Under the pieces are notes generated by a model that was not told where the DNA came from, made no database searches, and saw only the letters and a program-made list of their open reading frames with translations. From a virus, in the IMG/VR virus record IMGVR_UViG_3300028027_000281, positions 1 to 20,947 of that record: a stretch of DNA of 20,947 nt, one strand, 5' to 3'. Positions within the stretch are counted from its first letter, which is position 1, and each line of letters starts with the position of its first letter. Position numbers and translations under genes: made by a program. Of the stretch, positions 1,751 through 20,788 are shown piece after piece.

Positions 1751-3358
1751 TTATCCCTTAACCCTTCGTGCTTGATACTTCAAACCAATACTGTTAATAC
1801 CCCACTGTTTTGCAAGTGGTCCAATGAACTCCAGTTGAATTGACCGTGCCAAACCGAGGTTGCGTCCAGCAACCACGGTTGAACTGATTGCGCCAACAGA
1901 CCAGTCCTCACCCCAGTTACCTGAGTCCCAAATCAAACCATCAGTTTTTGGTGTTTGATTCAGGTTAAAGATTTTGCGTTCGTTACCAGCACCCTCGGAG
2001 AAGTCATGGTAAACCTTGACAGTTATGTCTTGTGGTGTGTCTGCTTCTTTGACAACGAAGTCTGGTCGGCGGAACATTTTCTTCTGCATATAAGACCCAC
2101 CATCAAACCAACGAGTTTTATAATATGATTCAAATGGAACATTGGTTCCAGTTATGTCGTCATACTCTTGACCATAAAGGTCAACTTTCATAACATATGG
2201 TTGAGTTGGATGGCACATCAAACGAAACTCATTATTTGATGCGTCAGTATATTCACAACCAGAAATCAAACCATAACCATCAGCAGTACTGAACCGTGTG
2301 AAAACACCATTACGAACAGATGGGTCCAACACAAAGTTTGTTGTCGCAACTGTCTGTGCTGTTTCCGTTGAATACGGAACACTCAGCCACACACGCCTGC
2401 CAATCCAACTAACAGTAATAGCATTAGCAGCCGCAGCATTAATATAACCCAAGTCAATTGCTGGACGAATCTGTTCAAACATGTCCTGAATAGTTGAACC
2501 ATTATAATAATGCAAACCTTTATTGTTTGAATACCAGTAAACACCGTTTTCTGTTTGCGCAATGCAATGATGAGCAAAACAACCAATAGTGCTGGTTAGT
2601 TCAACGATACGGAAGTTGCTGTTGGTGTAACCAAACAGCACATAAATTGCGTGAGGCTTAAAGATAACTAGTTGACCATTAACAACAGCCAAACCAGTAA
2701 TACCTTGCCCGCCACCATTCAAATCAAAGTAATGGTTCGCATCCCAGTTATCAGGAACATTCTCCAACGAATAACGCAACCTGTTGGGATAATTCACACC
2801 ATCTTCAAGAGTGTTAGCAACAAACATTTTATTAGCATGGACAATGATATGTTCACTAACAGGCATCTTATGTGAGCCATCTGGCGTAGCCTGCCAAGCG
2901 TTAGGGTTAGTGCCAGACGGTGTTAAACCACTCGCATAAGTGTCACCATTAGTCCAACTATAACTACCAGTACCACTAGCACCAGTAACCATATACATAG
3001 TCAAACCCCACTGTGCCATACACGCACCATGAGGACTGTTAGATATAACATCAACACCAGCACTAGATTGTAGAACGCTGAAGTTGCCACCACTTGATTT
3101 ATAAACTCTGTTGTTATTTGTTAAAAACAACTGTCTAGTAGTACCAGTAAAAGGATAAAGTTTGTCTGGAGCCCAAGTTGCGGCAACAGGACTAGTGTGG
3201 AATCGTTGTTGCGCACCACGGCTAAAGATTCCACCTCGTGGGTCAATCTCCACATTTAACATGTCAGGCGACTCAAAAGAAGACAACTGAAACTGGTCAG
3301 CACGATAATTTATGCCGCCAGTAAAATCACTCAGTTCCGTTATGTTTATGCCAGCCAC
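1751..3358 (-). CDS. Tail nozzle / tail tubular protein B-like
   Basis: A 535-residue beta-rich protein. The start is GTG at 3358 (MAGINITELSDFTGGIN), eight bases after the adaptor stop, with an AGG about nine bases upstream. The opening, where a short strand is followed by FTGGINYRADQFQL and then MLNVEIDPRGGIFSRGAQQR, is typical of the podovirus nozzle family (T7 gp12 and P22 gp10 type), which forms the tail tube below the adaptor ring and carries a beta-propeller-like body. Repeated aromatic/Gly strands (residues 80-330) agree. The position directly after the adaptor gene supports the call. Family assignment is from pattern memory, not alignment. Confidence 0.85.
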   Translation of the reverse strand: MAGINITELSDFTGGINYRADQFQLSSFESPDMLNVEIDPRGGIFSRGAQQRFHTSPVAATWAPDKLYPFTGTTRQLFLTNNNRVYKSSGGNFSVLQSSAGVDVISNSPHGACMAQWGLTMYMVTGASGTGSYSWTNGDTYASGLTPSGTNPNAWQATPDGSHKMPVSEHIIVHANKMFVANTLEDGVNYPNRLRYSLENVPDNWDANHYFDLNGGGQGITGLAVVNGQLVIFKPHAIYVLFGYTNSNFRIVELTSTIGCFAHHCIAQTENGVYWYSNNKGLHYYNGSTIQDMFEQIRPAIDLGYINAAAANAITVSWIGRRVWLSVPYSTETAQTVATTNFVLDPSVRNGVFTRFSTADGYGLISGCEYTDASNNEFRLMCHPTQPYVMKVDLYGQEYDDITGTNVPFESYYKTRWFDGGSYMQKKMFRRPDFVVKEADTPQDITVKVYHDFSEGAGNERKIFNLNQTPKTDGLIWDSGNWGEDWSVGAISSTVVAGRNLGLARSIQLEFIGPLAKQWGINSIGLKYQARRVKG

Positions 3359-3366
3359 AAATAAAC

Positions 3367-4083
3367 CTAGGCGTTATCTTGCAAATTACGACCCATGTTC
3401 AACATCCAACCATTAAAGGTAGGACGACCAGTGGTCTTACCTGCGGAAAGACGCATATGAGCATGGCTGGTTGGTTTCATGATTGCTGTCCGTGCTAGTT
3501 GAACACCCTCATCAAAAGAACGCTTATATTCGGCTGCCATAGCAGAGTCCTCAAGACGCTGATACACACGACTGCAAGCATAATAAACTAAAGCAAAATG
3601 CAAACTAGGAGCAGCGTCAACAACATCATCTTCGCCAATCCAATCCGTAGGCTCACGATACGCACGAACCTGCAAAGTTCGTGCAGTCTCAGGCTTCGGG
3701 AAAAGATGAATTTTGCCTTCCCACACAGCATAAAACAACGGGTCACCAGCCGTGTCATACGAACCAATATAGGTTCGTTCAGCCTCATCATAACCCACCA
3801 TGTCCAACCTGAAACCAACACCACTAGGGTCAACAATAGAAATGACCTCACTAATTGGGTCACCAGTAAAAGAAGAAATACTGTAAGACTTCTGTTCAGC
3901 AATCGTGTTAAAAGTAAACGACTTCTCTAGGAAATTCCAACGCTTCTCAAGGTCCAGAATACGGTAGTAGCCGTCACGAATATACAGGTTCAACAGCGAA
4001 TCAGGCAAGTCTTCAATGTCAAGGTCTGTGATGTCACGAACCGTTTGACGCAACTCCGTTGCCGTCATCGTCTGATAAGCCAT
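3367..4083 (-). CDS. Head-tail adaptor / tail tubular protein A-like
   Basis: A 238-residue protein from ATG 4083, whose A is shared with the stop of the upstream gene. The N-terminal helices (TATELRQTVRDITDL, then LLNLYIRDGYYRILDLEKRW) and the central beta segment (residues 60-140, with FYAVWEGKIHLFPKP) match the podovirus adaptor family (T7 gp11, P22 gp4, and phage gp6-like adaptors). These proteins form a dodecameric ring joining portal to nozzle. A second helical block (about 158-205) includes YYACSRVYQRLED. It lies immediately before the nozzle gene, the usual order. Confidence in the general role is high; the exact subfamily is not settled. Confidence 0.85.
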   Translation of the reverse strand: MAYQTMTATELRQTVRDITDLDIEDLPDSLLNLYIRDGYYRILDLEKRWNFLEKSFTFNTIAEQKSYSISSFTGDPISEVISIVDPSGVGFRLDMVGYDEAERTYIGSYDTAGDPLFYAVWEGKIHLFPKPETARTLQVRAYREPTDWIGEDDVVDAAPSLHFALVYYACSRVYQRLEDSAMAAEYKRSFDEGVQLARTAIMKPTSHAHMRLSAGKTTGRPTFNGWMLNMGRNLQDNA

Positions 4084-4307
4084 TAGTCCTCAACCTTCTT
4101 GCTTACGCCCTTCATATGACCTGCGCACAATTCTTGTCCACGCACACGGTTGGCACCACAGGTGTCATCGTTTCCTGAGCATTTGTCACCACGCCCCACA
4201 TAGGGTGCGGAGGCGGCAGCAAGTTGTGCGCCAGCCACCGCACTTAAACGCTGGAAGTTCTGAGGAGTTCCATAATAGGCATGTGCAGGGACAGAGTTAT
4301 TGTTCAT
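4083..4307 (-). CDS. Small Cys/His protein, probable zinc binder
   Basis: A 74-residue protein read from ATG 4307. In-frame GTG 4310 and TTG 4313 are alternatives; ATG is preferred. The N-terminal half is Ala-rich (LSAVAGAQLAAASA). The C-terminal half holds C43, C50, C61 and H64 in the order DKCSGNDDTCGANRVRGQELCAGH (broken here only for length), a spacing that could hold one zinc ion. Its stop overlaps the adaptor start as TAATG, so it belongs to the head-tail block. Short proteins with the pattern Cys-GNDDTC-Cys-x2-His occur in other phages without known function. It could be a virion decoration or an assembly factor. Confidence 0.75.
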   Translation of the reverse strand: MNNNSVPAHAYYGTPQNFQRLSAVAGAQLAAASAPYVGRGDKCSGNDDTCGANRVRGQELCAGHMKGVSKKVED

Positions 4308-4333
4308 CACCAATAGGCGAGATGTTCCTTAAA

Positions 4334-4900
4334 TTAGCCTTTTTGGCTATCCATCCATAACTTTAAGATATTCTTAATATCATTAGGAAGCATACCGCCA
4401 GCAACCTTGGCACCCATAGCACCAGTCTTCTTGGCACCCTTAACAGCACCTGCACCACCCAGTGGTGCTAAAGAGAACAAAGCATTAGCAAAATCACCTG
4501 CATTGCCTGCCTTGCCACTTGGGTTGCCACCAGCAATGTTGCGGATTGCATCCGCACCAAACCATTGCCCAATACCGCTGGAGGTTATAGCGTTAGCCAA
4601 GTTGCCCGCAATGTCCATGCCACGAAGCGTGTAAGGATTATTTATAACATCCAACCCACTCATAGCCATAGCCTTGTTCTGACCTTTTCCAGCCTGAGAA
4701 AAGTCAGTTGTGGGATTAAAGATTTGGTTCAAATACTTTTCAGCCTCAGGACCAATAAGTTGATTTTTGGCAACGGTGGCTACCTCCGCAGCCCCCTTCT
4801 TAACTTTCTTTGCACCCGACTTTACAGCAGGGACAACATTAGCGGGGGCGATAAGCCCCAGCAAATCGTTAATAGAGAACTGCGGTTGCGCCTTAGCCAC
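4334..4900 (-). CDS. Ala/Gly-rich virion-associated protein
   Basis: A 188-residue protein starting with GTG at 4900 (MAKAQPQFSINDLLGLIAP), two bases after the previous stop. The N-terminus carries SINDLLG at residues 9-15, followed by AVKSGAKKVKKG, which looks like a degenerate copy of the GIDDI-K motif of the three preceding proteins. The rest is Ala/Gly-rich with weakly hydrophobic helices (LRGMDIAGNLANAITSSGIGQWFG and DFANALFSLAPLGGAGAVKGAKK), possibly membrane-active. By position and composition it may be packaged in the capsid and released with the DNA. No known domain is recognised. Confidence 0.72.
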   Translation of the reverse strand: MAKAQPQFSINDLLGLIAPANVVPAVKSGAKKVKKGAAEVATVAKNQLIGPEAEKYLNQIFNPTTDFSQAGKGQNKAMAMSGLDVINNPYTLRGMDIAGNLANAITSSGIGQWFGADAIRNIAGGNPSGKAGNAGDFANALFSLAPLGGAGAVKGAKKTGAMGAKVAGGMLPNDIKNILKLWMDSQKG

Positions 4901-4902
4901 AA

Positions 4903-5382
4903 TTACTTCTTGTTTGACTTCTTAGGAGCAGCAGCCTTCTTGGCGGCTGCACGCTTAGTGGTACGGGCTTGAACCTTCTTAGGTGCGTTAACACCACCAG
5001 CCTTATAGTTGGCTTCTTTCTTAATGCCTTGATTACGCTTCTTAACAAAGTACTCGGTTGGTCGGGCTTCAACCTTGCGACCCAAACCTTCAGCACGCTT
5101 AACTGAAGAACCAGCAACTTTTTTAGCCGCTTTTCCAGCCTTGCCACTTTTACCAGCAGCCTCATTAAGGTGACCAATGCGTCCACCAATCTTTGACCAC
5201 TGTGCCTGAGCCTGCTTCATAGCCCTAGGGTCTTGCATAGCAACTTCACCTGCACGGCGTAATTCACGCTCCATAGCACGCTTCTCAGGACCTGCTGCTG
5301 TTCTAGCAATCTTCCGTTCCAAAGCCCTGACGGCTTTGGCTCCACCCTTGAGAATATCGTCAATACCTTTTTTCTGTGCCAT
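4903..5382 (-). CDS. Highly basic virion-associated protein, GIDDI motif (copy 3)
   Basis: A 159-residue protein starting with ATG at 5382, overlapping the previous stop as TAATG. It begins MAQKKGIDDILKGGAKAV, with the shared motif at residues 6-12. Residues 15-60 form a charged Arg/Glu-rich helix, then comes a Gly/Lys/Ala segment, and the tail (about 140-159) is Lys/Ala/Pro-rich, like histone H1 tails. The composition suggests DNA binding or condensation inside the head; this is inference. It sits third in a run of basic genes after the capsid gene. Confidence 0.75.
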   Translation of the reverse strand: MAQKKGIDDILKGGAKAVRALERKIARTAAGPEKRAMERELRRAGEVAMQDPRAMKQAQAQWSKIGGRIGHLNEAAGKSGKAGKAAKKVAGSSVKRAEGLGRKVEARPTEYFVKKRNQGIKKEANYKAGGVNAPKKVQARTTKRAAAKKAAAPKKSNKK

Positions 5383-5672
5383 TACTTGTAAGTTCCTTTT
5401 GAGCCGAAACGGTTATACTGTACTTTGTGTTGCTTCACAACACGCTTAGTAACAGCCTTGGATTCTTTCTTTGATTTACCCAAACCGATATTATGTTCCA
5501 TAATTTCGCCCTTGAGTTTCTTGATTTCTGGCTTGGACATCTTGCCACCAGACTTGCCAGCCTTATGCTTAACAACAGCCTTCTTAATGATTGTTGCGCC
5601 AGCCTTGATAATGTCGTCAATGCCTTCTGGCTTTGAGTTCAGTTCAATAGCCTTCTTCTTTACTGTTGCCAT
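5382..5672 (-). CDS. Lysine-rich small protein, GIDDI motif (copy 2)
   Basis: A 96-residue protein, start ATG 5672 and stop 5382, both joined to the neighbours by TAATG overlaps. Residues 17-23 are GIDDIIK, followed by AGATIIKKAVVKHKAGKSGGK. Lysine is by far the commonest residue. The C-terminus (TKRVVKQHKVQYNRFGSKGTYK) is basic and aromatic. No domain is recognised. The motif sits after a 16-residue basic leader, whereas copy 3 has only five leader residues, so the motif rather than the leader seems conserved. Probable nucleic-acid-binding capsid protein, by inference. Confidence 0.72.
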   Translation of the reverse strand: MATVKKKAIELNSKPEGIDDIIKAGATIIKKAVVKHKAGKSGGKMSKPEIKKLKGEIMEHNIGLGKSKKESKAVTKRVVKQHKVQYNRFGSKGTYK

Positions 5673-6004
5673 TATCGTCTTCCTGACTTTACTTTTCGTG
5701 GTTTCATATTAACAAAACTGTTTACTGCTTTTCTTTCACCCATATGTTGAGTAAATGTTTTTCCAACAAGTCGTTCCATCTTCTTAACTTCTTGTTCTGC
5801 CTCACGAGCAACATTATATTCAGACGCACGCTTTCTACTAGCAGCATTATACTTACTAGCCTTTTTAAGTTGCTTTGCTGTGTTCTTTGTTGGCACAGCC
5901 TTTTGCTTAACAACTTTCTTCAATGCTTTGGCAATTGGCTTAACAATATCGTCAATGCCCTGAGCCTTTTCAATAGCGGGTTTACGCTTCTTTGATGTTG
6001 CCAT
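5672..6004 (-). CDS. Lysine-rich small protein, GIDDI motif (copy 1)
   Basis: A 110-residue protein from ATG 6004, two bases after the previous stop. Residues 16-22 are GIDDIVK, followed by PIAKALKKVVKQKAV, an amphipathic basic helix. A second helical stretch (about 45-80: KYNAASRKRASEYNVAREAE) and the end (MKPRKVKSGRR) are also basic. It is the first of three consecutive genes sharing this N-terminal block, placed right behind the capsid gene region. By analogy with T4 internal head proteins, which share a capsid-targeting sequence, the motif could direct packaging into the prohead. That comparison is mine and untested. Confidence 0.72.
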   Translation of the reverse strand: MATSKKRKPAIEKAQGIDDIVKPIAKALKKVVKQKAVPTKNTAKQLKKASKYNAASRKRASEYNVAREAEQEVKKMERLVGKTFTQHMGERKAVNSFVNMKPRKVKSGRR

Positions 6005-6006
6005 AA

Positions 6007-6363
6007 TTAAAACTGCTTTCTTGGTTTTCTTGGTTTTGGTACAACTCCACGAACTGCTTTACCGAGTTTTTGCTTTGGCTTCCCAAAGTCTTTCATAAAC
6101 TTCGGAATAGTCAACTCATCTTTCTTAGGCTTACGAGGATTCCGAGGCTTCAATGGAACCATGTTGTCAAGAGCCTCTTTTTGTTTTGGGGTCAAAGGTT
6201 TGCGAGGCATCTGACGACCTTTTGTCCCTGCTGCTTTTGACAAGCCACGCTGAGCCATACGACCCGAAGCATCTTCCTTACTTGGCTTCATCCTCTTTGC
6301 CTTAGCGGCAGCAGCCATACCCTTAGGGGTATAAGGATATTCTTTTCCGTCAACATTCGGCAT
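6007..6363 (-). CDS. Basic conserved phage protein (MPNVDGKEYPYTPKG type)
   Basis: A 118-residue, very basic protein starting at ATG 6363 behind an AGGAG ribosome site (about 6372-6376). Its opening MPNVDGKEYPYTPKGMAAA is a recurring N-terminus of small basic proteins beside capsid genes in many uncultured phages. The rest is Lys/Pro/Arg-rich (for example LKPRNPRKPKKDE and VVPKPRKPRKQF). It lacks the GIDDI motif of the next three genes. The composition suggests contact with nucleic acid, or with the capsid's inner surface. Function unknown. Confidence 0.75.
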   Translation of the reverse strand: MPNVDGKEYPYTPKGMAAAAKAKRMKPSKEDASGRMAQRGLSKAAGTKGRQMPRKPLTPKQKEALDNMVPLKPRNPRKPKKDELTIPKFMKDFGKPKQKLGKAVRGVVPKPRKPRKQF

Positions 6364-6435: not shown

Positions 6436-7374
6436 TTAGGCGGTCTTAGCGGTCAACTTGCCTTGCTTCTTACGGTTGCGGCAGGTCAAGTTACCGTAGC
6501 ACATGATAAGTGCATAACGGGCATCCAAGTTTTCTGGACGCACAAACTGTGTCTGCGAGAACCACTTGCCTGAGTGACCAACAAGCGTCAGGTACTTGCT
6601 GTTGATGAAGAACATGTTGCCCGTAGGAGCAGCAGTATCATAAACAACAGGAGCAGCCTTGAACAACAGGTTCTGGAATCCAGCATCTGCGGTCTTGGTG
6701 TCCGTGTAACGGAGTTGTGGTTGGAGCAATGCCTCGTACTTTTCAAACAAGGTACGGGTGGTCAGAATCAAGTCTGGGCGGTCGTTACCAACAGAAACGC
6801 TGTTGTAAGCCGTTGCCATCTGTGCGAGGGTCAAAGCACCTGCGGTGTTTTCCTCGTATGAACGCCAGTACTCGTTACCTGCGGTAGCCGAGTTGATTCC
6901 ACCAACGGTGTTGCCTGATTCAATCAAGTTGCCAAGACCGTTCCAGTTCTTTCCGCTGTTGCCAGTTCCGTCTGAGAAGAACATTGCGTTGAAACCTTCA
7001 CGCATTGACTCCTCAGCCTGCATGATTTTTGCTTCCAACAGGTTAATGATTTCCTGTTCGCCGTTGTTCTTTGCTTCTTCAATACCGCTGATTGCGATGG
7101 ATGCAGCATACTGCTTCCATTCGTATTCAGCAGCCGAGATGCCGTCTTGTGCGGTCAACGAAATTGGGTCGTAACCTGAGTACGAAGCAACAGTTGAGTT
7201 CTGACCGTAGATGAGTGGCTCTACGATTTTGGTTCCGCCGTTAACCATACGAATACGACCATTTGACATGAGGTGGTTCGTAAGTACACGGTCGGTGAAC
7301 ACATTGTCCGTGAGTTGGTCACGGTAGTTTGCGAGTGTCGTTGACAACAGCGCATCAAAGTTTGGGTTTGACAT
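6436..7374 (-). CDS. Major capsid protein (HK97-fold type)
   Basis: A 312-residue protein from ATG 7374 behind a strong AAGGAG site. The N-terminal arm (LANYRDQLTDNVFTDRVL) leads into GTKIVEPLIYGQN and the acidic AEYEWKQYAASIAISG block, a pattern of phage capsid proteins with the HK97 fold. A long spine-like helix follows (NGEQEIINLLEAKIMQAEES, residues 104-123). The C-terminal part contains DLILTTRTLFEKYEALLQP, another usual capsid feature, and ends in a basic tail with RNRKKQGKLTAKTA. It lies directly after the scaffold gene and before a stem-loop, as expected for the most abundant virion protein. No maturation protease gene is visible nearby. Confidence 0.9.
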   Translation of the reverse strand: MSNPNFDALLSTTLANYRDQLTDNVFTDRVLTNHLMSNGRIRMVNGGTKIVEPLIYGQNSTVASYSGYDPISLTAQDGISAAEYEWKQYAASIAISGIEEAKNNGEQEIINLLEAKIMQAEESMREGFNAMFFSDGTGNSGKNWNGLGNLIESGNTVGGINSATAGNEYWRSYEENTAGALTLAQMATAYNSVSVGNDRPDLILTTRTLFEKYEALLQPQLRYTDTKTADAGFQNLLFKAAPVVYDTAAPTGNMFFINSKYLTLVGHSGKWFSQTQFVRPENLDARYALIMCYGNLTCRNRKKQGKLTAKTA

Positions 7375-7390: not shown

Positions 7391-8173
7391 TTATGAATTG
7401 AGTGAGCGTTTGGCAGCCGCCCAAGCCTCAGCGATTGATGTAATCGGTTCAAAACTGTCATTAGTAGTACTGGCTGTAGCCGAAGCCCCACCTGATACCA
7501 CACTTGCCGCCCTTTTAGATTCAACAATGGCAGTTTCTGCTGCCTGTTGTTTCTGAAACGCTGCTCGTTCTAATTCTTGTTTTGCCATGAGTTTATCAAA
7601 CGCAATCTGCTTGTATGTGCCTTCCAAATCCGTTGAGCCAGTCCGCAAAGCGGCTGTCACAACTTCATTGATGTTGAAGTCCTCATAACGGGATTGCAAC
7701 CTCTTTACCTCAGCCTCAACTTGTTGTTTGCTTTGGTAATCCTCAAATGATGCTAAACGCTGGTCAAGTTCTCTGTAACGCTTTTCCGTTGGGTCAAGCG
7801 ATTCAAAGTCATCTTCAGCAACCATGTCGGCAGCAGCCTGACGGCTAATGCCATAATGGTTTGCAAGCAAATCTAGCGTTGCAGATGGGTCACGCTCAAG
7901 GGCAGTTTGTAAAGCACTGGCAAACTCAAATTGCTCTCGTTGCTGTGCTAACTCTTGCGTCTTGCGGGTGTAATCTGCTTGGCGTTGATAACCTGCCAAA
8001 GCCTCACTGAGTGGAACTTGCAATTCCTCACCATCTAGTTTTACAGGAACTCGGTATGTTGAGTATTCCTCTACACTTAGAACTGGTGTTTCTGTGACTT
8101 CTACGCTTTCCGATACGGGTGACCCTTGGGGTTCCACGGATTGCGGTACTACTTCTGTGACTTCATCAGTCAT
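7391..8173 (-). CDS. Capsid scaffolding protein
   Basis: A 260-residue acidic, Gln/Glu-rich protein from ATG 8173, with GGAG about 12 bases upstream. After a disordered Val/Glu/Pro/Ser leader (residues 1-35) comes the hallmark RVPVKLDGEELQVPLSEAL then GYQRQADYTRKTQ (41-73), found in many phage scaffolds. A long helical region with LASFEDYQSKQQVEAEVKRLQ follows. The Ser/Thr-rich C-terminal end, with a final helix EAWAAAKRSLNS, is the kind that binds coat protein in other systems. Its position between portal and capsid genes fits. It would shape the prohead and then leave or be degraded. Confidence 0.88.
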   Translation of the reverse strand: MTDEVTEVVPQSVEPQGSPVSESVEVTETPVLSVEEYSTYRVPVKLDGEELQVPLSEALAGYQRQADYTRKTQELAQQREQFEFASALQTALERDPSATLDLLANHYGISRQAAADMVAEDDFESLDPTEKRYRELDQRLASFEDYQSKQQVEAEVKRLQSRYEDFNINEVVTAALRTGSTDLEGTYKQIAFDKLMAKQELERAAFQKQQAAETAIVESKRAASVVSGGASATASTTNDSFEPITSIAEAWAAAKRSLNS

Positions 8174-8232: not shown

Positions 8233-9933
8233 CTATTGTGGGGGCATAGGTGGCATTGGTGGCATCTGAGGCATCGCACCTTCAGGTGGCATACCACCAG
8301 CAGGCGCTCCAGCAGCAGGGACAGGAGGAGGAGCCTGTTGAATAAACTCGTCAGGGTTCTTAATACCGAAACCATTCTGAAGCACATATGCAGCCAACTT
8401 TGGCATATTGATAATGCCAGAACCAGCGAACGGTGCCATAGCATCCACAATCTGCAAAGCCATCTGACGCTTGAACGATTCGTTATGTGGCTGTGTTGAA
8501 CCAGCCACAACTTCAAAGTCAAAGTTTCCTGCTAGATACTCACGGTCGTATTCAATCCAAATAGGTTCACCATCTTTGCCGATGATTCGGGCAACATGCT
8601 GACCAGTTGTAAACTGGTATGCCAAGGCAACCATGCGGCGACCAATCTCGCTGATGGCTTGCTCCACGATAGCCAACTTGTCTGCTGTCCGTGCATTACT
8701 GGCATCCTGTACCAATGATGCTTCAGTTGCGGTACGGCGGATTTCCGTTGTACCGCCACGCTGAATTTCAGACACACCAGACACACGGTCAATGTCAGCA
8801 ATAATGGTGTCACTCAGGTTATAAAACTCTGGTGGGTTAATGATTGCTGGCATAGCCATAACTGTGCCACCCAAAGCCTCATCACCGATAACGGGAACCA
8901 TCACATTGTCCTCATCGGATTCCAACGCTGTGCGACCCAACTGGTCAAACGCCGATTCCTTATAAAGATACTTGCGAGCGAACTTCTTACGATGGTTCAT
9001 CATCTGTGAACGGGTTTCGTTCAACTCACGCTGCAACGGTTCAATGCTTTCCAGTTCACCAATTGGATAGAAATGGTCTGGAATGTCATAGTCACGCAAC
9101 ATCACAAAAGGCTGACCAAACGAATATGGCAAAGGCATTGGCTTAACCAAATAGTGTTCTGCGCTTTCGCAGAACACGCTCAATGATTTGCCGACAATAT
9201 CATAAAATTCCCAAATCTCGGCATAACCCTGATTCTTGTCGTTAATCTTCTTACGGCTTGGGTCATCCGCATAACGGCTGACAGCCATAACCTGAACCTC
9301 GTCACGAGCAACCTTGCTGTAACGCTTGTCCGCCTTAACTTCACTTAGTGGTCGGCGGATGCGTTGAGCAATCCATTTGATGTCTTTCATGTTTGTGGCA
9401 TCTGGGTCCACAAACACATCCATAGGGCTCACACGCTCTGCAAATGGGCTATCCTCAAGGATTACGCTAATAGGGGTTGATTCGCCACCCAACTGTGGGT
9501 CAGACACTTCATCGTCCATGCCAACTGTTTCTTCTTCAACGAAACGGTAGCCAACTTTAATCCAACCATGACCGCAGGTCAACATGTCTTTTACTGCACG
9601 GCGGAACTGGTCACGGATGTCTCGGTGTCGCCACCAATAGTTGACGACAGCCTCGGCAATAACAGCCTGAGAAGCATGTTCAGGTTTTACAGCATTGACA
9701 GAAATTTTTGGGAAGTTGACAGAGATGTTTGGTGCAATAATGTTGACTGTTGAAAAAGCAACATTCACCAGCAGACGGTCTTCTTGAGCGTAATCGTCAT
9801 AATGATGACCTTTATACATGTCAATCATTCTGCGCCAGATAGCATCATAACCTTCGTCTTTGCGCCAACGCTTGGATGCTTCCAACTTCATCTTTTGTGA
9901 CTTGAGTTGGTCTGCTGCTGATTTCTTAGCCAT
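8233..9933 (-). CDS. Portal protein
   Basis: A 566-residue protein whose ATG directly follows the stop of the small membrane-protein gene. It opens with a basic helix (AADQLKSQKMKLEASKRWRKD), then WRRMIDMYKGHHYDD and VNVAFSTVNIIAPNIS, typical of dodecameric portals of podovirus-type phages. PMDVFVDPDATNMKDIKWIAQRI (172-194) and the helical ESIEPLQRELNETRSQMMNHRKK stretch (about 300-323) are characteristic. The C-terminus is an unusual Pro/Met/Ala-rich tail ending in repeated MPP units. The protein forms the DNA channel and packaging vertex, and lies between the terminase and the scaffold genes. Confidence 0.9.
   Translation of the reverse strand: MAKKSAADQLKSQKMKLEASKRWRKDEGYDAIWRRMIDMYKGHHYDDYAQEDRLLVNVAFSTVNIIAPNISVNFPKISVNAVKPEHASQAVIAEAVVNYWWRHRDIRDQFRRAVKDMLTCGHGWIKVGYRFVEEETVGMDDEVSDPQLGGESTPISVILEDSPFAERVSPMDVFVDPDATNMKDIKWIAQRIRRPLSEVKADKRYSKVARDEVQVMAVSRYADDPSRKKINDKNQGYAEIWEFYDIVGKSLSVFCESAEHYLVKPMPLPYSFGQPFVMLRDYDIPDHFYPIGELESIEPLQRELNETRSQMMNHRKKFARKYLYKESAFDQLGRTALESDEDNVMVPVIGDEALGGTVMAMPAIINPPEFYNLSDTIIADIDRVSGVSEIQRGGTTEIRRTATEASLVQDASNARTADKLAIVEQAISEIGRRMVALAYQFTTGQHVARIIGKDGEPIWIEYDREYLAGNFDFEVVAGSTQPHNESFKRQMALQIVDAMAPFAGSGIINMPKLAAYVLQNGFGIKNPDEFIQQAPPPVPAAGAPAGGMPPEGAMPQMPPMPPMPPQ
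9154..9177 (-). other. Perfect 10-bp hairpin inside the portal gene
   Basis: GTGTTCTGCG pairs perfectly with CGCAGAACAC around a four-base loop, inside codons for SVFCESAEHY of the portal. A stem this long and exact is uncommon in coding sequence, and could affect translation or mRNA cleavage. Confidence 0.55.
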
Positions 9934-10393: not shown

Positions 10394-11992
10394 TCAAAAA
10401 GGAGTTCGTTTTCTAACATTATGGGACCCAATATAAACTTTATTCTCACCAATCGGGTCAAAAAGATGCTGTTCCCACCACAACATGCTGTTGTGTGGGA
10501 TTTGGACATCATTACGGTACTCTGGAAGCCAAACATATTTCAGCATCTGGTTGGCGATAGCCAAACTGATGGTCCTGTCGTCATGCGGGCTGCCAGCCAT
10601 CTTACCGTTTTCTTTCCGAACAAAGGTTTTCAATTCGGCAATAGTTTTCCCACAGTAAACTTCAATAGCCCCATCACGCAAGTTGGCGTTCAACTCGTCA
10701 ATAGCCAACGGTTTCGTAGTCACCGTGGTACGCCAGCCCAGAATCTCTGTAGCCTCAGGACGAACATGACCCATACGGCGTTGCTTATAAAGATTCCTAT
10801 AGCCATGCTTCTGGGCAGCCTTCAAAGTGGTCAGACCGTGGTTGTTGTTTTCCACACCCAGCAAAGCCGTGTTATACCACCAACCCAACTCCGCCAGCAA
10901 GTCGCCAAACAAGTCTGGCTCAATATGTCCATGCCAATGCGCAACCATAATACCCGTAGCAGCATCAATGATATGGGCGGAACTGTAGTCACCATAACTT
11001 AGACCTTCAGCGACATCGGCTCCAATCACATAAACACCATCAATCTCAGGGTATTGCCAGACAGCCAACTCCCCTTCGGGAGTTGCCCTGAATTCACCGT
11101 TACCATCCGAATACAAATGGAAGTATCCTCTGTCAGGGTCTATCAGGTGCATCTCGTCTAGCATGTCAATATCAAACACAGGGTTACCTGATTTGATGAA
11201 CGCTTCCTCAGGGAAGCGTGGATATTCTTGGTGCATCTGCCAAGGTTGCATGTTACGGCTCTTAGCGGTGTACCAGTCCTCGTCACGCTCACCGTCAGCA
11301 TCCCAAGGGAAAAAGATACCTTGGAACTGATTGGTCCCAGTTTGGGAGTTCACCCACAACTGGTGAAAGAAGTTTCCTGAACCGTTAGCGGTGGACAAAC
11401 CAATAACACGACCACCAACATCGGCAATCGGTTCAATAGATGCCCATGCTTCTTCAGGGTTGGGCAAAAACGCCCACTCGTCCACAATAACCAAATACAC
11501 CGACTCACCACGAGCAGGGTCATTACCCGATGGCAACGACTCAATAGCAGACTCGTTATCAAACATCATCTTCTGCTGATGGTCAGTTGTCTGTTTAGGT
11601 CCACGCTCCTTCATCCACACAGGAAGAAATCGGAAACCATACTTACTCTTAGCAAGCAACTTTACAGATTCACGCTCGGTACGGGACAACATAACTACGA
11701 AGCGGTCTTGGCGGAAAAATACCAGCCAGAAAGCGTATGCCGCCGCTAGGGTGCTAAAACCAATCTGTCGTGCTTTTAGCACGATGCTGTAACGGTTTGT
11801 CATCCATGCTTCAATTGTTTCCAATTGGGCTTCACGCAACTCAAACTTTATGCGACCCTTTTCAGGATGTTTGATGCACCAATAGTTTTCGCAAAAGTAT
11901 TTGAACGCTTCAACTTGTTGTGCGATTGTGGCGTTTTCTTGTCCACGACAAGTACGCCACTCTTTTTCATTAAGAAGTTCTGCTAGTTCCAC
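10394..11992 (-). CDS. terL: Terminase large subunit
   Basis: A 532-residue packaging motor read from GTG 11992; TTG 12007 in the same frame is an alternative. The ATPase has a Walker A-like loop KARQIGFST (73-81), Walker B VYLVIVDEW (166-173) with D171 and E172, and a coupling motif GLSTANGSGN (198-207). The nuclease domain shows D326 in GADVAEG, E381 in GVENNNHG and D471/D472 in SPHDDRT, the expected acidic triad of an RNase H-like headful or end-cutting nuclease. It would pump DNA through the portal and cut concatemers. It overlaps the end of the lysozyme-like gene by ten bases. The small subunit candidate lies about 7.6 kb upstream, which is unusual. Confidence 0.95.
   Translation of the reverse strand: MELAELLNEKEWRTCRGQENATIAQQVEAFKYFCENYWCIKHPEKGRIKFELREAQLETIEAWMTNRYSIVLKARQIGFSTLAAAYAFWLVFFRQDRFVVMLSRTERESVKLLAKSKYGFRFLPVWMKERGPKQTTDHQQKMMFDNESAIESLPSGNDPARGESVYLVIVDEWAFLPNPEEAWASIEPIADVGGRVIGLSTANGSGNFFHQLWVNSQTGTNQFQGIFFPWDADGERDEDWYTAKSRNMQPWQMHQEYPRFPEEAFIKSGNPVFDIDMLDEMHLIDPDRGYFHLYSDGNGEFRATPEGELAVWQYPEIDGVYVIGADVAEGLSYGDYSSAHIIDAATGIMVAHWHGHIEPDLFGDLLAELGWWYNTALLGVENNNHGLTTLKAAQKHGYRNLYKQRRMGHVRPEATEILGWRTTVTTKPLAIDELNANLRDGAIEVYCGKTIAELKTFVRKENGKMAGSPHDDRTISLAIANQMLKYVWLPEYRNDVQIPHNSMLWWEQHLFDPIGENKVYIGSHNVRKRTPF
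11066..11085 (-). other. Perfect 8-bp hairpin at the terminase domain linker
   Basis: CAACTCCC and GGGAGTTG flank a four-base loop. The stem encodes TPEGELA (about residues 304-310), between the ATPase and nuclease domains of the large terminase. Possible translation pause site; this is inference. Confidence 0.45.
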
Positions 11993-12411
11993 GGCTCCCC
12001 GCCCCAAGGTCCAAACCCGTCACCATAACGATTATCAGCATAATCATAAATAGCCATAAATGCTTTACCGCTAATGACAGGATTATAAAGGTCTTTACAT
12101 TTTGTTAAAACACCAGCATCCTGAAGAAACCCCTGCTTAGTGTAACGATTTGGTTTGCACCAAAACTTGTTAATTTGGAATAACCCAATAGAGCCACCCA
12201 TAGGGTCATCACGGTTAATCACCGATGCGTTGCATCGTGATTCCCGATACATGATGTAATCAACCTGATACATCATTTCTTTATTGTCTGCAACCATCTC
12301 AATAATGTCATAGTGGTTCCAACACTTCAATGCCTGAAACTTCTTAGCGTGGACAACAGAGCCACCCAAAAGAACATATAGCAAAACAGTAACTAGCAGT
12401 ATTTTCTTCAT
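11983..12411 (-). CDS. Secreted lysozyme/transglycosylase-fold protein
   Basis: A 142-residue protein from ATG 12411. The start is chosen because it gives a clean signal peptide: MKK, a hydrophobic core (ILLVTVLLYVLLGGSVV) and a cut after VHA (residue 22). The mature part has YIMYRESRCNAS with E57 as the probable catalytic acid, and GGSIGLFQIN (72-81), the classic pair of lytic transglycosylase/goose-lysozyme-like folds that cleave peptidoglycan glycan strands. C30, C60, C85 and C105 could form two disulfides, consistent with export. It follows the endolysin after a 34-base gap. It may act in lysis, or locally at the wall during infection. Confidence 0.82.
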   Translation of the reverse strand: MKKILLVTVLLYVLLGGSVVHAKKFQALKCWNHYDIIEMVADNKEMMYQVDYIMYRESRCNASVINRDDPMGGSIGLFQINKFWCKPNRYTKQGFLQDAGVLTKCKDLYNPVISGKAFMAIYDYADNRYGDGFGPWGGEPWN

Positions 12412-14589: not shown

Positions 14590-15594
14590 CTATGTGCGCC
14601 ATCTAATATAAACTATTCCTGAACCACCGTTACCGCCAGCACCGTTAACACCTGCGCTGCCAGCACCACCGCCACCGCTTGCAGTGTTTGCTGCTGCTGA
14701 GCCACCTGTAACAGTTGTTCCTGCTCCACCAACACCTGAACCGCCTGCTCCACCAGCGGCAGAACCCCCGCCACCACCACCTGCTGCTTTGAACAATGAT
14801 GAACCTGATATAAAAGCAGAAACATCATAACCAGCACCACCAGAACCACCCGTAGTTGTTACTGCGTTATTCCCAACAGCAGTAGAACCGCCTCCACCGC
14901 CACCAGCATGGTTTCCAGTTGTAGCACCATTGCCACCAGAACGCCCAGAAACTGTATCAAACAATGATGTTAAACCAGTTGCATACGCTCCACCCGCACC
15001 ACCTCCTCCGCCACCACCAGATGCACCACGGTAACCTGCAAAGTTTCCAACACCAACAACAGTAAAACCGCCGAACCCACCACCAAGTGCCTGCATTGTA
15101 CCCAAAGATGCAGTCAACGAACTACCACCTCCGTTTGAGCCACCACTGTTAACAGCACCTGCACCGCCAGCAGCAACTTGTATTGCATAAGTTCCTGCAG
15201 CCAAATAGATTGTTTGCAAAACTACTGCCCCCGCACCACCTCCGCCGCCGCTGTAAGCAGCGTTCATTGAAGAACCACCCGAACCACCGCCACCAAACAT
15301 CAAAACATCAAATACACCAGCAGAAGAAACCACAAAGTTCCCAGTAGAAATAAAAGAAGTATAATTATAATTAGTGCCACTAACAGTTACAGCCAAAACA
15401 CCAGTACCACCTGTCGCTGCTGAAACAGTATGCAAAGTTCCAGTTGACCATGCCGAACCAAGCCAAACTCTTATTAAACTGGTATCAGTTTCAAAAATAA
15501 CCTGACCAGTGTACGGACTCGCAGGGCGAGTCGTACTAGTGCATACGGCAGGTTGGATAATTGATTGTGCGCCAGTAATAGTACCTATCGGCAT
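14590..15594 (-). CDS. Glycine-rich fibre/adhesin-like protein (third)
   Basis: A 334-residue protein with ATG at 15594 overlapping the previous stop (TAATG). Residues about 17-51 form the shared N-module, with PAVCTSTTRPASPYTGQ and FETDTSLIRVWLGSAWSTG. A beta segment follows (FDVLMFGGGGSGG), then about 200 residues of Gly-rich sequence with poly-Gly runs, and it ends GSGIVYIRWRT. Poly-glycine tracts of this kind fold as packed polyglycine-II helices in the phage S16 gp38 tip adhesin, with variable loops that touch the receptor. Its body and end match the protein at 16999-17823 rather than its direct neighbour. Confidence 0.8.
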   Translation of the reverse strand: MPIGTITGAQSIIQPAVCTSTTRPASPYTGQVIFETDTSLIRVWLGSAWSTGTLHTVSAATGGTGVLAVTVSGTNYNYTSFISTGNFVVSSAGVFDVLMFGGGGSGGSSMNAAYSGGGGGAGAVVLQTIYLAAGTYAIQVAAGGAGAVNSGGSNGGGSSLTASLGTMQALGGGFGGFTVVGVGNFAGYRGASGGGGGGGAGGAYATGLTSLFDTVSGRSGGNGATTGNHAGGGGGGSTAVGNNAVTTTGGSGGAGYDVSAFISGSSLFKAAGGGGGGSAAGGAGGSGVGGAGTTVTGGSAAANTASGGGGAGSAGVNGAGGNGGSGIVYIRWRT

Positions 15595-16559
15595 TATGAA
15601 ACCACCAATGTTCCAGAAGAAGTGAATGTATGAATTGTATAACCATTTACAGATGTTATTACTCCACCCGTTGCTCGTGCTGTACCAAGATAAGAAACTA
15701 TTACCACACCAGAACCACCATTAGCGCCAGTTGATGCTCCACTACCACCACCGCCGCCACCACCAAGGTTGCTTCCACCAGCAGTGACAGCATTGCTTGA
15801 ATCCCCACCGTTACCACCACCACCAGCACCACCTAAACCCCTAGTTCCAGTAACAGTGATTCCACCACCACCACCACCTGCATATGTTACAGAAGCACCA
15901 GAAATGGTATTAGCAGTTCCTGCACCACCAGTTCCGCCAAGTCGTGATGCAGCAGCGGTCCCAGAACCAGTTGCGCCACCGCCTGCACCACCAGCAGAAT
16001 CTGCACCAAGGTTTCCTGTCCCAGCACCACCATTGCTACCTTGAGATGGGGAAACACTCGGAGTGTTTCCAGAACCACCAGGAATACTGTTGTTGCTTAA
16101 GTTTGCGCTTGAACCTCCACCGCCCGAACCACCTGAACCACCAGCAATGGTTGAGTTTCTACCCGCACCACCTCCGCCCCCAGCAGATGAAATTGAGTTA
16201 AATACAGATGCAACACCAGCAGTACCTTCTAGCGAACTTGCACCACCAGTTCCACCTCCGCCAACAGTAACAGTATATGAAGATGGTGAACTCAAACTTG
16301 CCGAACCAGTTCTATAGCCTCCAGCACCTCCACCGCCACCACCGTTATGACCACCACCACCTCCGCCACCAACAACAAGAAATGTTACTGGCAAATCATT
16401 TGTGTGCTGATATCCAGTTGACCATGCAGACCCCAACCATGCTCTCATTCGTTGAGTATCAGTTTCATAAATAACTTGACCCAAATATGGGTTAGTTGGT
16501 CGTGCAGTTGACAAACAAACGCCAGCCGAAATACTTTGGGTAGTAGTTGTAATAGCCAT
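15594..16559 (-). CDS. Glycine-rich fibre/adhesin-like protein (second)
   Basis: A 321-residue protein. The start is ATG 16559 (MAITTTTQSISAG), which overlaps the 52-residue gene's stop as TAATG; a longer frame to 16598 has no support. Residues 11-49 are the shared N-module (AGVCLSTARPTNPYLGQ, then YETDTQRMRAWLGSAWSTG). TFLVVGGGGGGGHNGGGGGG begins the Gly-rich body with many poly-Gly runs separated by Ser/Thr/Ala/Asn loops. The tail VIVSYLGTARATGG plus TIHTFTSSGTLVVS (about 286-321) is a usual end of this fibre family. Likely a receptor-contact protein; the specific receptor is unknown. Confidence 0.8.
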   Translation of the reverse strand: MAITTTTQSISAGVCLSTARPTNPYLGQVIYETDTQRMRAWLGSAWSTGYQHTNDLPVTFLVVGGGGGGGHNGGGGGGAGGYRTGSASLSSPSSYTVTVGGGGTGGASSLEGTAGVASVFNSISSAGGGGGAGRNSTIAGGSGGSGGGGSSANLSNNSIPGGSGNTPSVSPSQGSNGGAGTGNLGADSAGGAGGGATGSGTAAASRLGGTGGAGTANTISGASVTYAGGGGGGITVTGTRGLGGAGGGGNGGDSSNAVTAGGSNLGGGGGGGSGASTGANGGSGVVIVSYLGTARATGGVITSVNGYTIHTFTSSGTLVVS

Positions 16560-16717
16560 TATAATGTTTGTCCTATTGACCAAGCGCTGCCTAGCCAAAC
16601 TCTTAATACTTGTGTGTCTGTTTCGTAAATCATTTGACCAACATAAGGCGCTTGAGGGCGTGTTGAACTAGTACAAACACCATTTCTGTTTTGTCCTCGT
16701 GCAGCCTGAATACTCAT
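16559..16717 (-). CDS. Free-standing fibre N-module, 52 residues
   Basis: A frame from ATG 16717 (ATGA overlap with the previous stop) to a TAA that overlaps the next ATG. The product contains NGVCTSSTRPQAPYVGQ and IYETDTQVLRVWLGSAWSIG, clearly the same module that opens the next two glycine-rich proteins, but it ends two residues later with QTL. Exact coupling at both ends argues for a working small gene rather than random debris. It could be a base or adaptor piece that occupies the same site as the full fibres, or the remnant of a deleted third fibre. Function is inferred from similarity to its neighbours. Confidence 0.75.
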   Translation of the reverse strand: MSIQAARGQNRNGVCTSSTRPQAPYVGQMIYETDTQVLRVWLGSAWSIGQTL

Positions 16718-18161: not shown

Positions 18162-19133
18162 TTATGCTCCTATGTCCATAGTTATAATTGCAGCAAAACC
18201 TGCGTTGGTAATTGGGTTTGTTGCTGGTGCGTTAGTCCAAACTGTATTATAGTTTGTTGCATCAATCTTACTTAAGATTTGTCCAGCGGTACCACCAACA
18301 GGAACACCTGCACCAGTTGCTCCCGTAGGTCCAGTCGGTCCAGTTGGTCCAACATCTCCTTGGATTCCTTGCGGACCCTGAGGTCCCGTTGCGCCTGTGG
18401 CACCAGTAGGTCCTGTAGCACCCGTAGCACCAGTAGGTCCAATAGGACCAACATCACCTTGAATACCCTGTGGACCCTGTGGACCTGTCGCTCCAGTAGC
18501 ACCCGTTGGTCCAGTAGCACCTGTTAAACCTATAGGTCCTTGTGGTCCTTCGGCACCAACCGCACCAGACAAGTTAACTGTCCACGCCGAATATGTTCCA
18601 GAACCCTCAAAATCAGTTACAGTTGCAACCATTGCACCAGTTGATGAGTTATACGAATCAACCTCAGCATGAATATGGTTAGTAACATTATAAGAAATCA
18701 AAACAGTTTGGTTAACCGTATAAGAAAAACCAGTACCAATAGTTAAAGAAACAGTTCCACCAATTGTCGCTGGAATAGCAATAGTTGATGTTGATGTCGT
18801 CTGATATTTGTCACCAGCCAAACCTTGGATACCTTGGATACCTTGTGGACCAGTAGGACCAGTCGCACCAGTTGCCCCTGTAGGACCTTGAGGACCAGTT
18901 AAACCAATATCCCCCTGCGGACCAGTAGGACCTGTAGGTCCAGTCGCTCCTGTAGGTCCCTGAGGTCCAGTTGGACCAGTTGCTCCAGTTGGTCCAGTAG
19001 GACCCGTAGCACCCGTGTCACCCGTGTCACCTTTAGGACCATAAGACCCACTGGAGACAGTAGTGATTACAGCACTACGAACAATACCGTTGGTGACATC
19101 ACCACGGGAAACAACAACTCTAGTGATTGCCAT
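18162..19133 (-). CDS. Collagen-like tail fibre protein
   Basis: A 323-residue protein with ATG 19133 (TAATG overlap). Residues 1-31 form an N-terminal cap. Two Gly-X-Y blocks follow, about 26 triplets (32-109) and 29 triplets (190-276), made mainly of GPT, GAT and GPQ units. Between them is a beta domain (110-189) with the pattern [27 protein letters not shown] and [14 protein letters not shown], a common insert in phage collagen-like fibres. The C-terminal [23 protein letters not shown] is a usual closing motif. It would form a trimeric fibre shaft. Thr and Ala replace most of the Pro, as in bacterial and phage collagens that lack hydroxyproline. Confidence 0.88.
18345..18503 (-). repeat. 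Tandem collagen duplication with synonymous divergence
   Basis: Residues 211-230 (18444-18503) and 244-263 (18345-18404) are identical in protein, at a period of 33 residues. Compared codon by codon, 14 of 20 codons differ, each only at the third position. Confidence 0.8.
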
Positions 19134-20234: not shown

Positions 20235-20360
20235 ATGATTCACACAATAGCAATCATCCTAGGGACAACGGTTTTAACCCTGCTAGGTATCATCGTGTTT
20301 CTAAGAAGTTTATTTTCAACTCTGGAACAAATAGACAAGGAGACATCAAATGGCGAGTAA
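20235..20360 (+). CDS. Small one-helix membrane protein
   Basis: A 41-residue product from ATG 20235 (MIHTIAIILGTTVLTLLG). Residues 2-25 form one membrane helix; the rest (LFSTLEQIDKETSNGE) is charged. The frame can be read open upstream to 20160, but only this start gives a sensible membrane protein, with a weak GGACAG upstream. Its TAA lies inside the next gene's start region (11-base overlap, ATGGCGAGTAA), indicating coupled translation. It is the first gene of the rightward operon. Role unknown; small membrane peptides of phages include superinfection and lysis factors. Confidence 0.6.
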   Translation: MIHTIAIILGTTVLTLLGIIVFLRSLFSTLEQIDKETSNGE

Positions 20361-20511
20361 GAAAGCCAAGAAAAAAGTAGCAAAAGTAATGCGAGAATAC
20401 AAGTCAGGCACCCTGCACAGTGGCAAAGGTGGCAAGGTTGTAAAGTCCCGTAAACAGGCTATCGCTATAGCGTTATCCGAATCTAGGAAAGTAAAAAAGA
20501 GTGGCAAGTAA
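20350..20511 (+). CDS. DUF6496-like small basic protein
   Basis: A 53-residue protein starting MASKKAKKKVAKVMREYKSG. The body has KVMREYKSGTLHSGKGG, then KSRKQAIAIALSESRK (33-47), the signature of DUF6496-type proteins of bacteria and phages, whose function is not known. It is strongly basic and may bind nucleic acid. It overlaps the membrane-peptide gene by 11 bases and the next gene by 11 bases. The first 16 bases reappear with three changes at the start of the following gene, so the gene is framed by near-direct repeats. Confidence 0.8.
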   Translation: MASKKAKKKVAKVMREYKSGTLHSGKGGKVVKSRKQAIAIALSESRKVKKSGK

Positions 20512-20516
20512 AAAAG
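20350..20516 (+). repeat. Near-direct repeats framing the DUF6496-like gene
   Basis: Positions 20350-20365 and 20501-20516 match at 13 of 16 bases ((A/G)TGGC(G/A)AGTAA(G/A)AAAG). Each copy holds the start codon of one gene and the stop codon of the previous one, in the same relative frame. Confidence 0.65.
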
Positions 20517-20788
20517 ACTCACGACTAGCACGAGCAGGTGTCAGCGGCTACAACAAGCCAAAGCGCACACCAAACCATCCAAAGAAATCCCATATTGTCG
20601 TAGCCAAATCAGGCGGACAAGTCAAAACCATCAGGTTCGGACAACAAGGCGTCACAGGCTCACCAAAAAAAGCAGGCGAAAGCAAGGCTTACGCCAGCCG
20701 CCGCAAACGATTCCAAACCCGACACGCCAAAAACATAGCCAAAGGACCAATGAGCGCAGCCTACTGGGCAAACAAAGTAAAATGGTAA
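20501..20788 (+). CDS. DUF6321-like protein
   Basis: A 95-residue protein with a GTG start at 20501 that overlaps the preceding stop by 11 bases; no ATG alternative lies nearby. Near the start is RLARAGVSGYNKPKRTPNHP, followed by KSHIVVAKSGG and KTIRFGQQGVTG; it ends RHAKNIAKGPMSAAYWANKVKW. These match the DUF6321 pattern seen in many phages and some bacteria. Very basic, with conserved aromatic residues, it may bind nucleic acid or virion components. Function is not established. The tRNA gene begins four bases after its stop. Confidence 0.85.
   Translation: MASKKDSRLARAGVSGYNKPKRTPNHPKKSHIVVAKSGGQVKTIRFGQQGVTGSPKKAGESKAYASRRKRFQTRHAKNIAKGPMSAAYWANKVKW

Follow-up and report, generated by a model that had tools for sequence, protein, structure and literature searches.

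A shared N-terminal motif on basic proteins encoded behind the coat gene of a short-tailed phage: a candidate tag for loading into the virion interior

Why do three neighbouring, lysine-rich but otherwise variable proteins, encoded between the coat and adaptor genes of a phage, begin with nearly the same seven residues, and could this motif address them to the inside of the capsid? The DNA analysed here, referred to as the window, is a 20,947-base IMG/VR virus record in which nearly every gene lies on the minus strand.

The cassette behind the coat gene and its tagged proteins

The features on which the following rests are:

10394-12007, minus strand, TerL
8233-9933, minus strand, portal (Pfam matches to P22_portal, 5.8e-21, and SU10_portal)
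7391-8173, minus strand, scaffolding protein (phrog_3927, 8e-12)
7403..7438, minus strand, scaffold C-terminal helix SIAEAWAAAKRS, presumed to bind coat and set against the tag below
6436-7374, minus strand, major coat protein (HK97 fold; residues 4-27 form an N-terminal helix), a possible partner of the tag
4083-6363, minus strand, cassette of small proteins between coat and adaptor
6007..6363, minus strand, basic0, a basic cassette protein without the DD tag and with another shared N-terminus (phrog_33179)
5672-6004, minus strand, p1, tagged basic protein of 110 aa, net strongly positive, with leader and tag in common with p2
5939..5959, minus strand, tag core GIDDIVK of p1 (exact pattern match)
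5382-5672, minus strand, p2, tagged basic protein of 96 aa (TAATG overlap with p1)
5604..5624, minus strand, tag core GIDDIIK of p2 (exact pattern match)
4903-5382, minus strand, p3, tagged basic protein of 159 aa (TAATG overlap with p2)
5347..5367, minus strand, tag core GIDDILK of p3 (exact pattern match)
4334-4900, minus strand, p4, last tagged cassette member, 188 aa, less basic, with a Gly/Ala-rich C-terminal half
4856..4876, minus strand, variant tag SINDLLG of p4, kept at the same place in 14 p4 relatives
3367-4083, minus strand, adaptor (SU10_adaptor, 1.7e-20)
1751-3358, minus strand, large protein

The Pfam matches of portal and adaptor, together with an Mx8-related coat of HK97 fold, bear out the original prediction of a podovirus-type phage and place it in the short-tailed P22/SU10/Mx8 type. 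The predicted coat structure shows the HK97 fold with good confidence (pLDDT 83.7) and is nearest to cyanophages Mic1 and A-1(L), followed by SU10, while the coat sequence groups with Myxococcus phage Mx8 and its kin. Comparison of the scaffold with PDB sequences gave no match, and a search for a host by way of prophages found no portal relatives in the prokaryote genome collection.

As originally described, GIDDI[V/I/L]K has exactly three matches, one close to the N-terminus of each of three neighbouring lysine-rich proteins, and the gene coordinates are correct. The degenerate pattern GIDDI(x)K matches only these three places in the window, all on the minus strand, and gives no match on the reversed control. 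Six of the seven motif columns are identical among p1, p2 and p3, where 300 shuffles of the same N-termini reached at most four. In relatives the motif is broader than first stated, [GSPN]-[IVLWA]-D-D-[IL]-x-[KR], and begins an amphipathic helix; if helical, the tag region has a moment of 0.63 as compared to 0.31 in the rest of the protein. The SINDLLG of p4, described as a degenerate copy, is no isolated oddity: relatives of p4, for the most part with 17–43% identity, have F-[DN]-I-x-[DE]-[LI]-L or something close to it in that position. The predicted structure of p4 has a mean pLDDT of 45.8. The claim that the rest of each protein is unrelated holds only in part, as p1 and p2 are alike over about 38 N-terminal residues comprising leader, motif and the next helix (57.5% over 40 aa, E 1e-5). 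The scores of p3 against p1 and p2 are weak and go with biased composition (E 6e-4 to 3e-3).

Several further features of the window should be mentioned in their own right. The N-terminus of basic0, MPNVDGKEYPYTPKGMAAAAKA (phrog_33179, 7e-6), is a second start common to basic proteins of different size, and in another phage group this same start occurs as a free-standing basic protein of 35–41 aa encoded before the coat gene (L239:2497-2619, L240:5073-5198, L237:5461-5586, L222:57-164). The cassette gene p5 (4083-4313, minus strand) encodes GRGDKCxGNDDTCGAN and further Cys/His residues in a product of 74–85 aa; it precedes the adaptor in nearly every relative and is far better conserved than the other cassette genes, with no family match; the gene is listed with a TTG start, but translation probably begins at an ATG two codons further in. 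Two small basic proteins are encoded on the opposite strand (20350-20511 and 20501-20788, plus strand), one of which is a DUF6496 protein (2.9e-15); the other (..GYNKPKRTPNHPKKSH..AAYWANKVKW) has relatives located before the coat gene in other phages, e.g. L239:2777-3052. Three tail-like neighbours (14590-15594, 15594-16598 and 16559-16717, minus strand) have in common the N-terminal segment RPxxPYxGQxIxETDTxxxRxWLGSAWSxG, which precedes unlike or Gly-rich C-terminal parts and is again a case of one N-terminus on several bodies. Finally, a collagen-like protein with many repeats (18162-19133, minus strand) is probably part of a tail fibre.

Conservation and exchange of the tag in relatives

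Eighty relatives were picked by their portal only and not by the motif, and in these the interval between coat and adaptor proved to be a variable cassette. A relaxed motif, [DE]D[ILVF]x[KR] within the first 40 residues, was found in 29 of 75 cassette clusters, where shuffling of the same residues predicts 0.38. Inside the same cassette proteins, 1 of 199 internal windows had it; among upstream genes the count was 3 of 238 and among downstream genes 0 of 67. Of the three upstream genes, two bear the complete tag: one lies just before the portal gene (L014:7558-7839), the other in the lysis cluster that precedes TerL (L068:1949-2317). The remaining one appears to be a chance match. Each of the 32 complete cassettes contains at least one tagged gene, and 25 contain at least two, so that the expectation of finding the motif in homologous small basic proteins near capsid genes was strongly confirmed. 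Moreover, an unsupervised search of the cassette N-termini recovered [SG]-[IV]-D-D-I-x-K-A-[IL], and a gene-by-gene scan of ten long relatives showed the tag to be nearly confined to these genes. When the whole of IMG/VR was scanned for GIDDIIK, 78 stretches were obtained; contigs of this phage group were the only ones with the motif close to the N-terminus of a protein that is strongly basic and at least 70 residues long. No such tag was seen in other phage groups that encode small basic proteins near their capsid genes.

Behind the tag the proteins differ widely. Composition-adjusted BLAST sorts the tagged bodies, which belong to proteins of up to 491 aa, into about 15 groups, a rough count because Lys/Ala-rich sequence may join groups falsely. 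No convincing family match was obtained for 54 cassette proteins in Pfam, PHROGs and NCBIfam, and the proteins tried against 50,697 phage records had no relative; two single weak PADLOC matches near E 0.005 were taken as chance. An exchange is visible in L004, a relative whose portal is 99% identical to that of the window, where one gene consists of about 16 first codons of p1 and the body of p2. The codons of the tag vary between clusters (GAT 33, GAC 24; ATT 24, ATC 14, ATA 2), and this mixture of synonymous Asp and Ile codons indicates that the protein sequence is what is kept. A second shared element is the leader K-[KR]-K-P-A-I-[EQTD], which many genes have ahead of the tag and some have with no tag at all; its concerted evolution within genomes is unsupported (p 0.15). 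As judged from these comparisons, the tag module is both conserved and exchangeable. As a separate observation on L004, its scaffold is, like its portal, 99% identical to that of the window while TerL is only 83% identical, placing a mosaic junction between TerL and portal.

A candidate loading signal and its presumed partner

The closest precedent is phage T4, whose internal proteins, variable and basic, are loaded by means of an N-terminal sequence of 10 residues (PMC9026906). As with the T4 capsid-targeting sequence (CTS) of IPI–IPIII, a short N-terminal sequence is found here on variable basic proteins with divergent bodies that turn over between related phages (PMC9026906), in this case on 29 of 75 clusters and about 15 body groups; the genes likewise lie next to the coat gene, with coupled starts and products whose median net charge is +17 per 100 aa. 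The sequence itself is unlike that of T4, the phage is of another type, and loading is proven for T4 and proposed here. The T4 sequence is also cleaved by the gp21 protease, whereas 13 long relatives, searched with working controls, gave no match to prohead proteases of the S78 or ClpP type (the search for the S77 family, that of T4 gp21, was run without a positive control). From the lack of an S78 or ClpP-type match, the tag is probably retained uncleaved.

Two further systems involve scaffold ends. The scaffold of phage 80alpha binds the coat N-arm and the cleft between the A and P domains by a C-terminal helix and RIIK hook, and the satellite (SaPI1) protein CpmB has an almost identical end (PMC5644958). 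There, too, unrelated proteins have a short amphipathic helix in common, with binding to coat from the inside proven for 80alpha and proposed for the tag. However, CpmB is a size-changing scaffold rather than cargo, and in place of a C-terminal helix and hook with R-I-I-K the tags are N-terminal and read D-D-I-x-K. In P22, the C-terminal helix-turn-helix of the scaffold binds coat, and cargo fused to it is packed (PMC9962691, PMC12005531). A coat-binding scaffold end takes cargo into an HK97-fold shell there, although these fusions are engineered and contain the greater part of the scaffold, as opposed to a natural short N-terminal helix. Encapsulins load cargo into a HK97-fold shell by a short terminal peptide; they resemble the present case in peptide size and shell and differ in peptide sequence and in being non-viral and scaffold-free. 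The window combines such features, namely variable basic proteins with a common N-terminal helix encoded by genes adjoining the coat gene. Prohead loading is the most likely function.

The scheme we propose for this uncultured phage lineage is as follows. Late genes directly behind the coat gene, partly translationally coupled, encode small, mostly very basic proteins; as the sequence shows, each opens with a leader rich in Lys, continues with an N-capped acidic turn (G/S-I-D-D) and then forms an amphipathic helix. During prohead assembly the helix would bind an inner partner, the likeliest candidate being coat at the site of the scaffold C-terminal helix, which is the weakest step of the scheme. 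The scaffold would then exit, and the basic bodies would remain on the DNA after packaging and accompany it into the cell, by analogy with the T4 internal proteins. Address and body being separate, bodies can be exchanged, as in the one swap seen in L004. Position, charge, gene turnover and tag exchange all fit the T4 kind and lend partial support to the capsid-loading role originally predicted. We estimate a probability of roughly 0.6 that the motif forms the centre of a transferable tag at the N-terminus, serving to load proteins into the virion interior.

The partner of the tag was approached through the scaffolds. Among 69 scaffold clusters of the Mx8-like coat superfamily, a motif was learned unsupervised from 66, leaving out the group of the window and the distant relative L118. 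The last 12–20 residues contain one recurring motif, S-[LI]-[RED]-D-x-[LI]-[RE]-x-x-[LMF], exemplified by SLDDVIRHF (Ruegeria phage 45A6), SIDDTLAQT (ctMlz233), SLEDEIRQL (a Bradyrhizobium phage) and SVRGSLEAAW (Mx8). The scaffold of L118, which has no N-terminally tagged cargo, ends in GIDDIIKQSWDEMFA and contains the exact tag GIDDIIK. On the cassette N-termini the scaffold motif outscored all of its 500 column-permuted versions (0/500), with NLDDIIRQAL (19.8 bits), SIDDIVKAVM and PLDDIIKAVL as top scorers; tags of the GIDDIIK form score low because the scaffold motif prefers S in the first position and a hydrophobic last residue. Relative to all other proteins of these phages, the excess of scaffold-like cassette N-termini is modest (4 compared to 0.61 expected at 10 bits, p 0.0036; p ~0.03, i.e. 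0.033, at 6–8 bits). The scaffold end of the window's own group, SIAEAWAAAKR, is nearly constant within the group and fits the frame of the motif without the DD core, and is only partly like the tag. No scaffold-like tag was seen in other phage groups with basic-protein arrays. Conversely, a tag PSSM run on the scaffolds had its best match in the C-terminal end of 12, where 3.6 are expected, a count that was not used because several matches are DDSW stretches and not the motif. A 44-aa basic protein in L169 (L169:12247-12381) ends SSVREKFVKTAMGY, somewhat like the scaffold end RSVKESAMEALKKL of the same phage, and could be a C-terminal version of a scaffold-like tag, at a score of only 0.8 bits.

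These similarities are suggestive of a tag that may mimic the scaffold C-terminal helix, a lead rather than a result, with coat binding by these scaffold ends itself presumed from better-studied phages. Taken by itself, the idea that the tag binds coat through scaffold mimicry is tentative and less likely than not. The cargo role would be the same if the helix instead recognised the helical core of the scaffold, the portal or a common internal complex, the likeness to scaffold ends then being that of any short N-capped amphipathic helix; this alternative agrees with the loading tag on function and differs in the partner. In P22 the ejection proteins are believed to attach to the column of scaffold and not to coat (PMC12005531), the statistics of the scaffold motif are modest, and no co-variation of the tag was seen with the scaffold end, which is nearly constant within the group; all of this would suit another receptor. 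The outcome of the column-order test (0/500) and the exact tag at the scaffold C-terminus of L118, within the same coat superfamily, argue against this alternative. A different receptor is regarded as less likely than not.

Possible action inside the cell, and what a loading tag would mean

A function without any role in the virion must also be weighed. The helix could be a dimerisation or host-factor binding module shared by late-made small DNA-binding proteins that act in the infected cell, e.g. on the host nucleoid or the replicating genome. The high Lys/Ala content would suit such proteins, and a position beside the coat gene can reflect late expression only. Still, the tag is also found on the less basic, Gly/Ala-rich p4 and on proteins as long as 491 aa, and its place is a late structural operon; we consider a purely intracellular module unlikely. 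Very improbable is an absence of function, with N-termini alike through duplication or recombination of neighbouring 5' ends and Lys-rich starts favouring translation: p1 and p2 are indeed alike over about 38 residues with nearly the same tag codons, and L004 shows recombination in a 5' end, but the motif is kept over diverged bodies with mixed synonymous codons, occurs at other genome positions and has an acidic amphipathic core that is more than a mere Lys-rich start.

For the loading tag, the present analysis adds to the original prediction a wider motif, a second leader element, tagged genes outside the cassette and the resemblance to scaffold C-termini. To our knowledge, little has been learned about how short-tailed phages choose their head-internal proteins, T4-like phages and a few others being the exceptions. 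A portable tag would allow candidate injected proteins to be listed by a sequence scan of N-termini, and it could supply a small loading peptide for shells of the P22/Mx8 type. In some T4-like phages injected proteins are counter-defence factors, and the turnover of the cassette would fit counter-defence or DNA-organising proteins as the delivered cargo. If the link to the scaffold holds, phages would be natural users of a method that P22 nanotechnology arrived at by design. It is a tentative proposal, less likely than not, that a coat-binding scaffold helix has been placed N-terminally on a whole exchangeable set of accessory proteins, as a natural scaffold-mimic cargo tag; if true, the product of any gene landing behind the tag would be taken up by the capsid and delivered together with the phage DNA.
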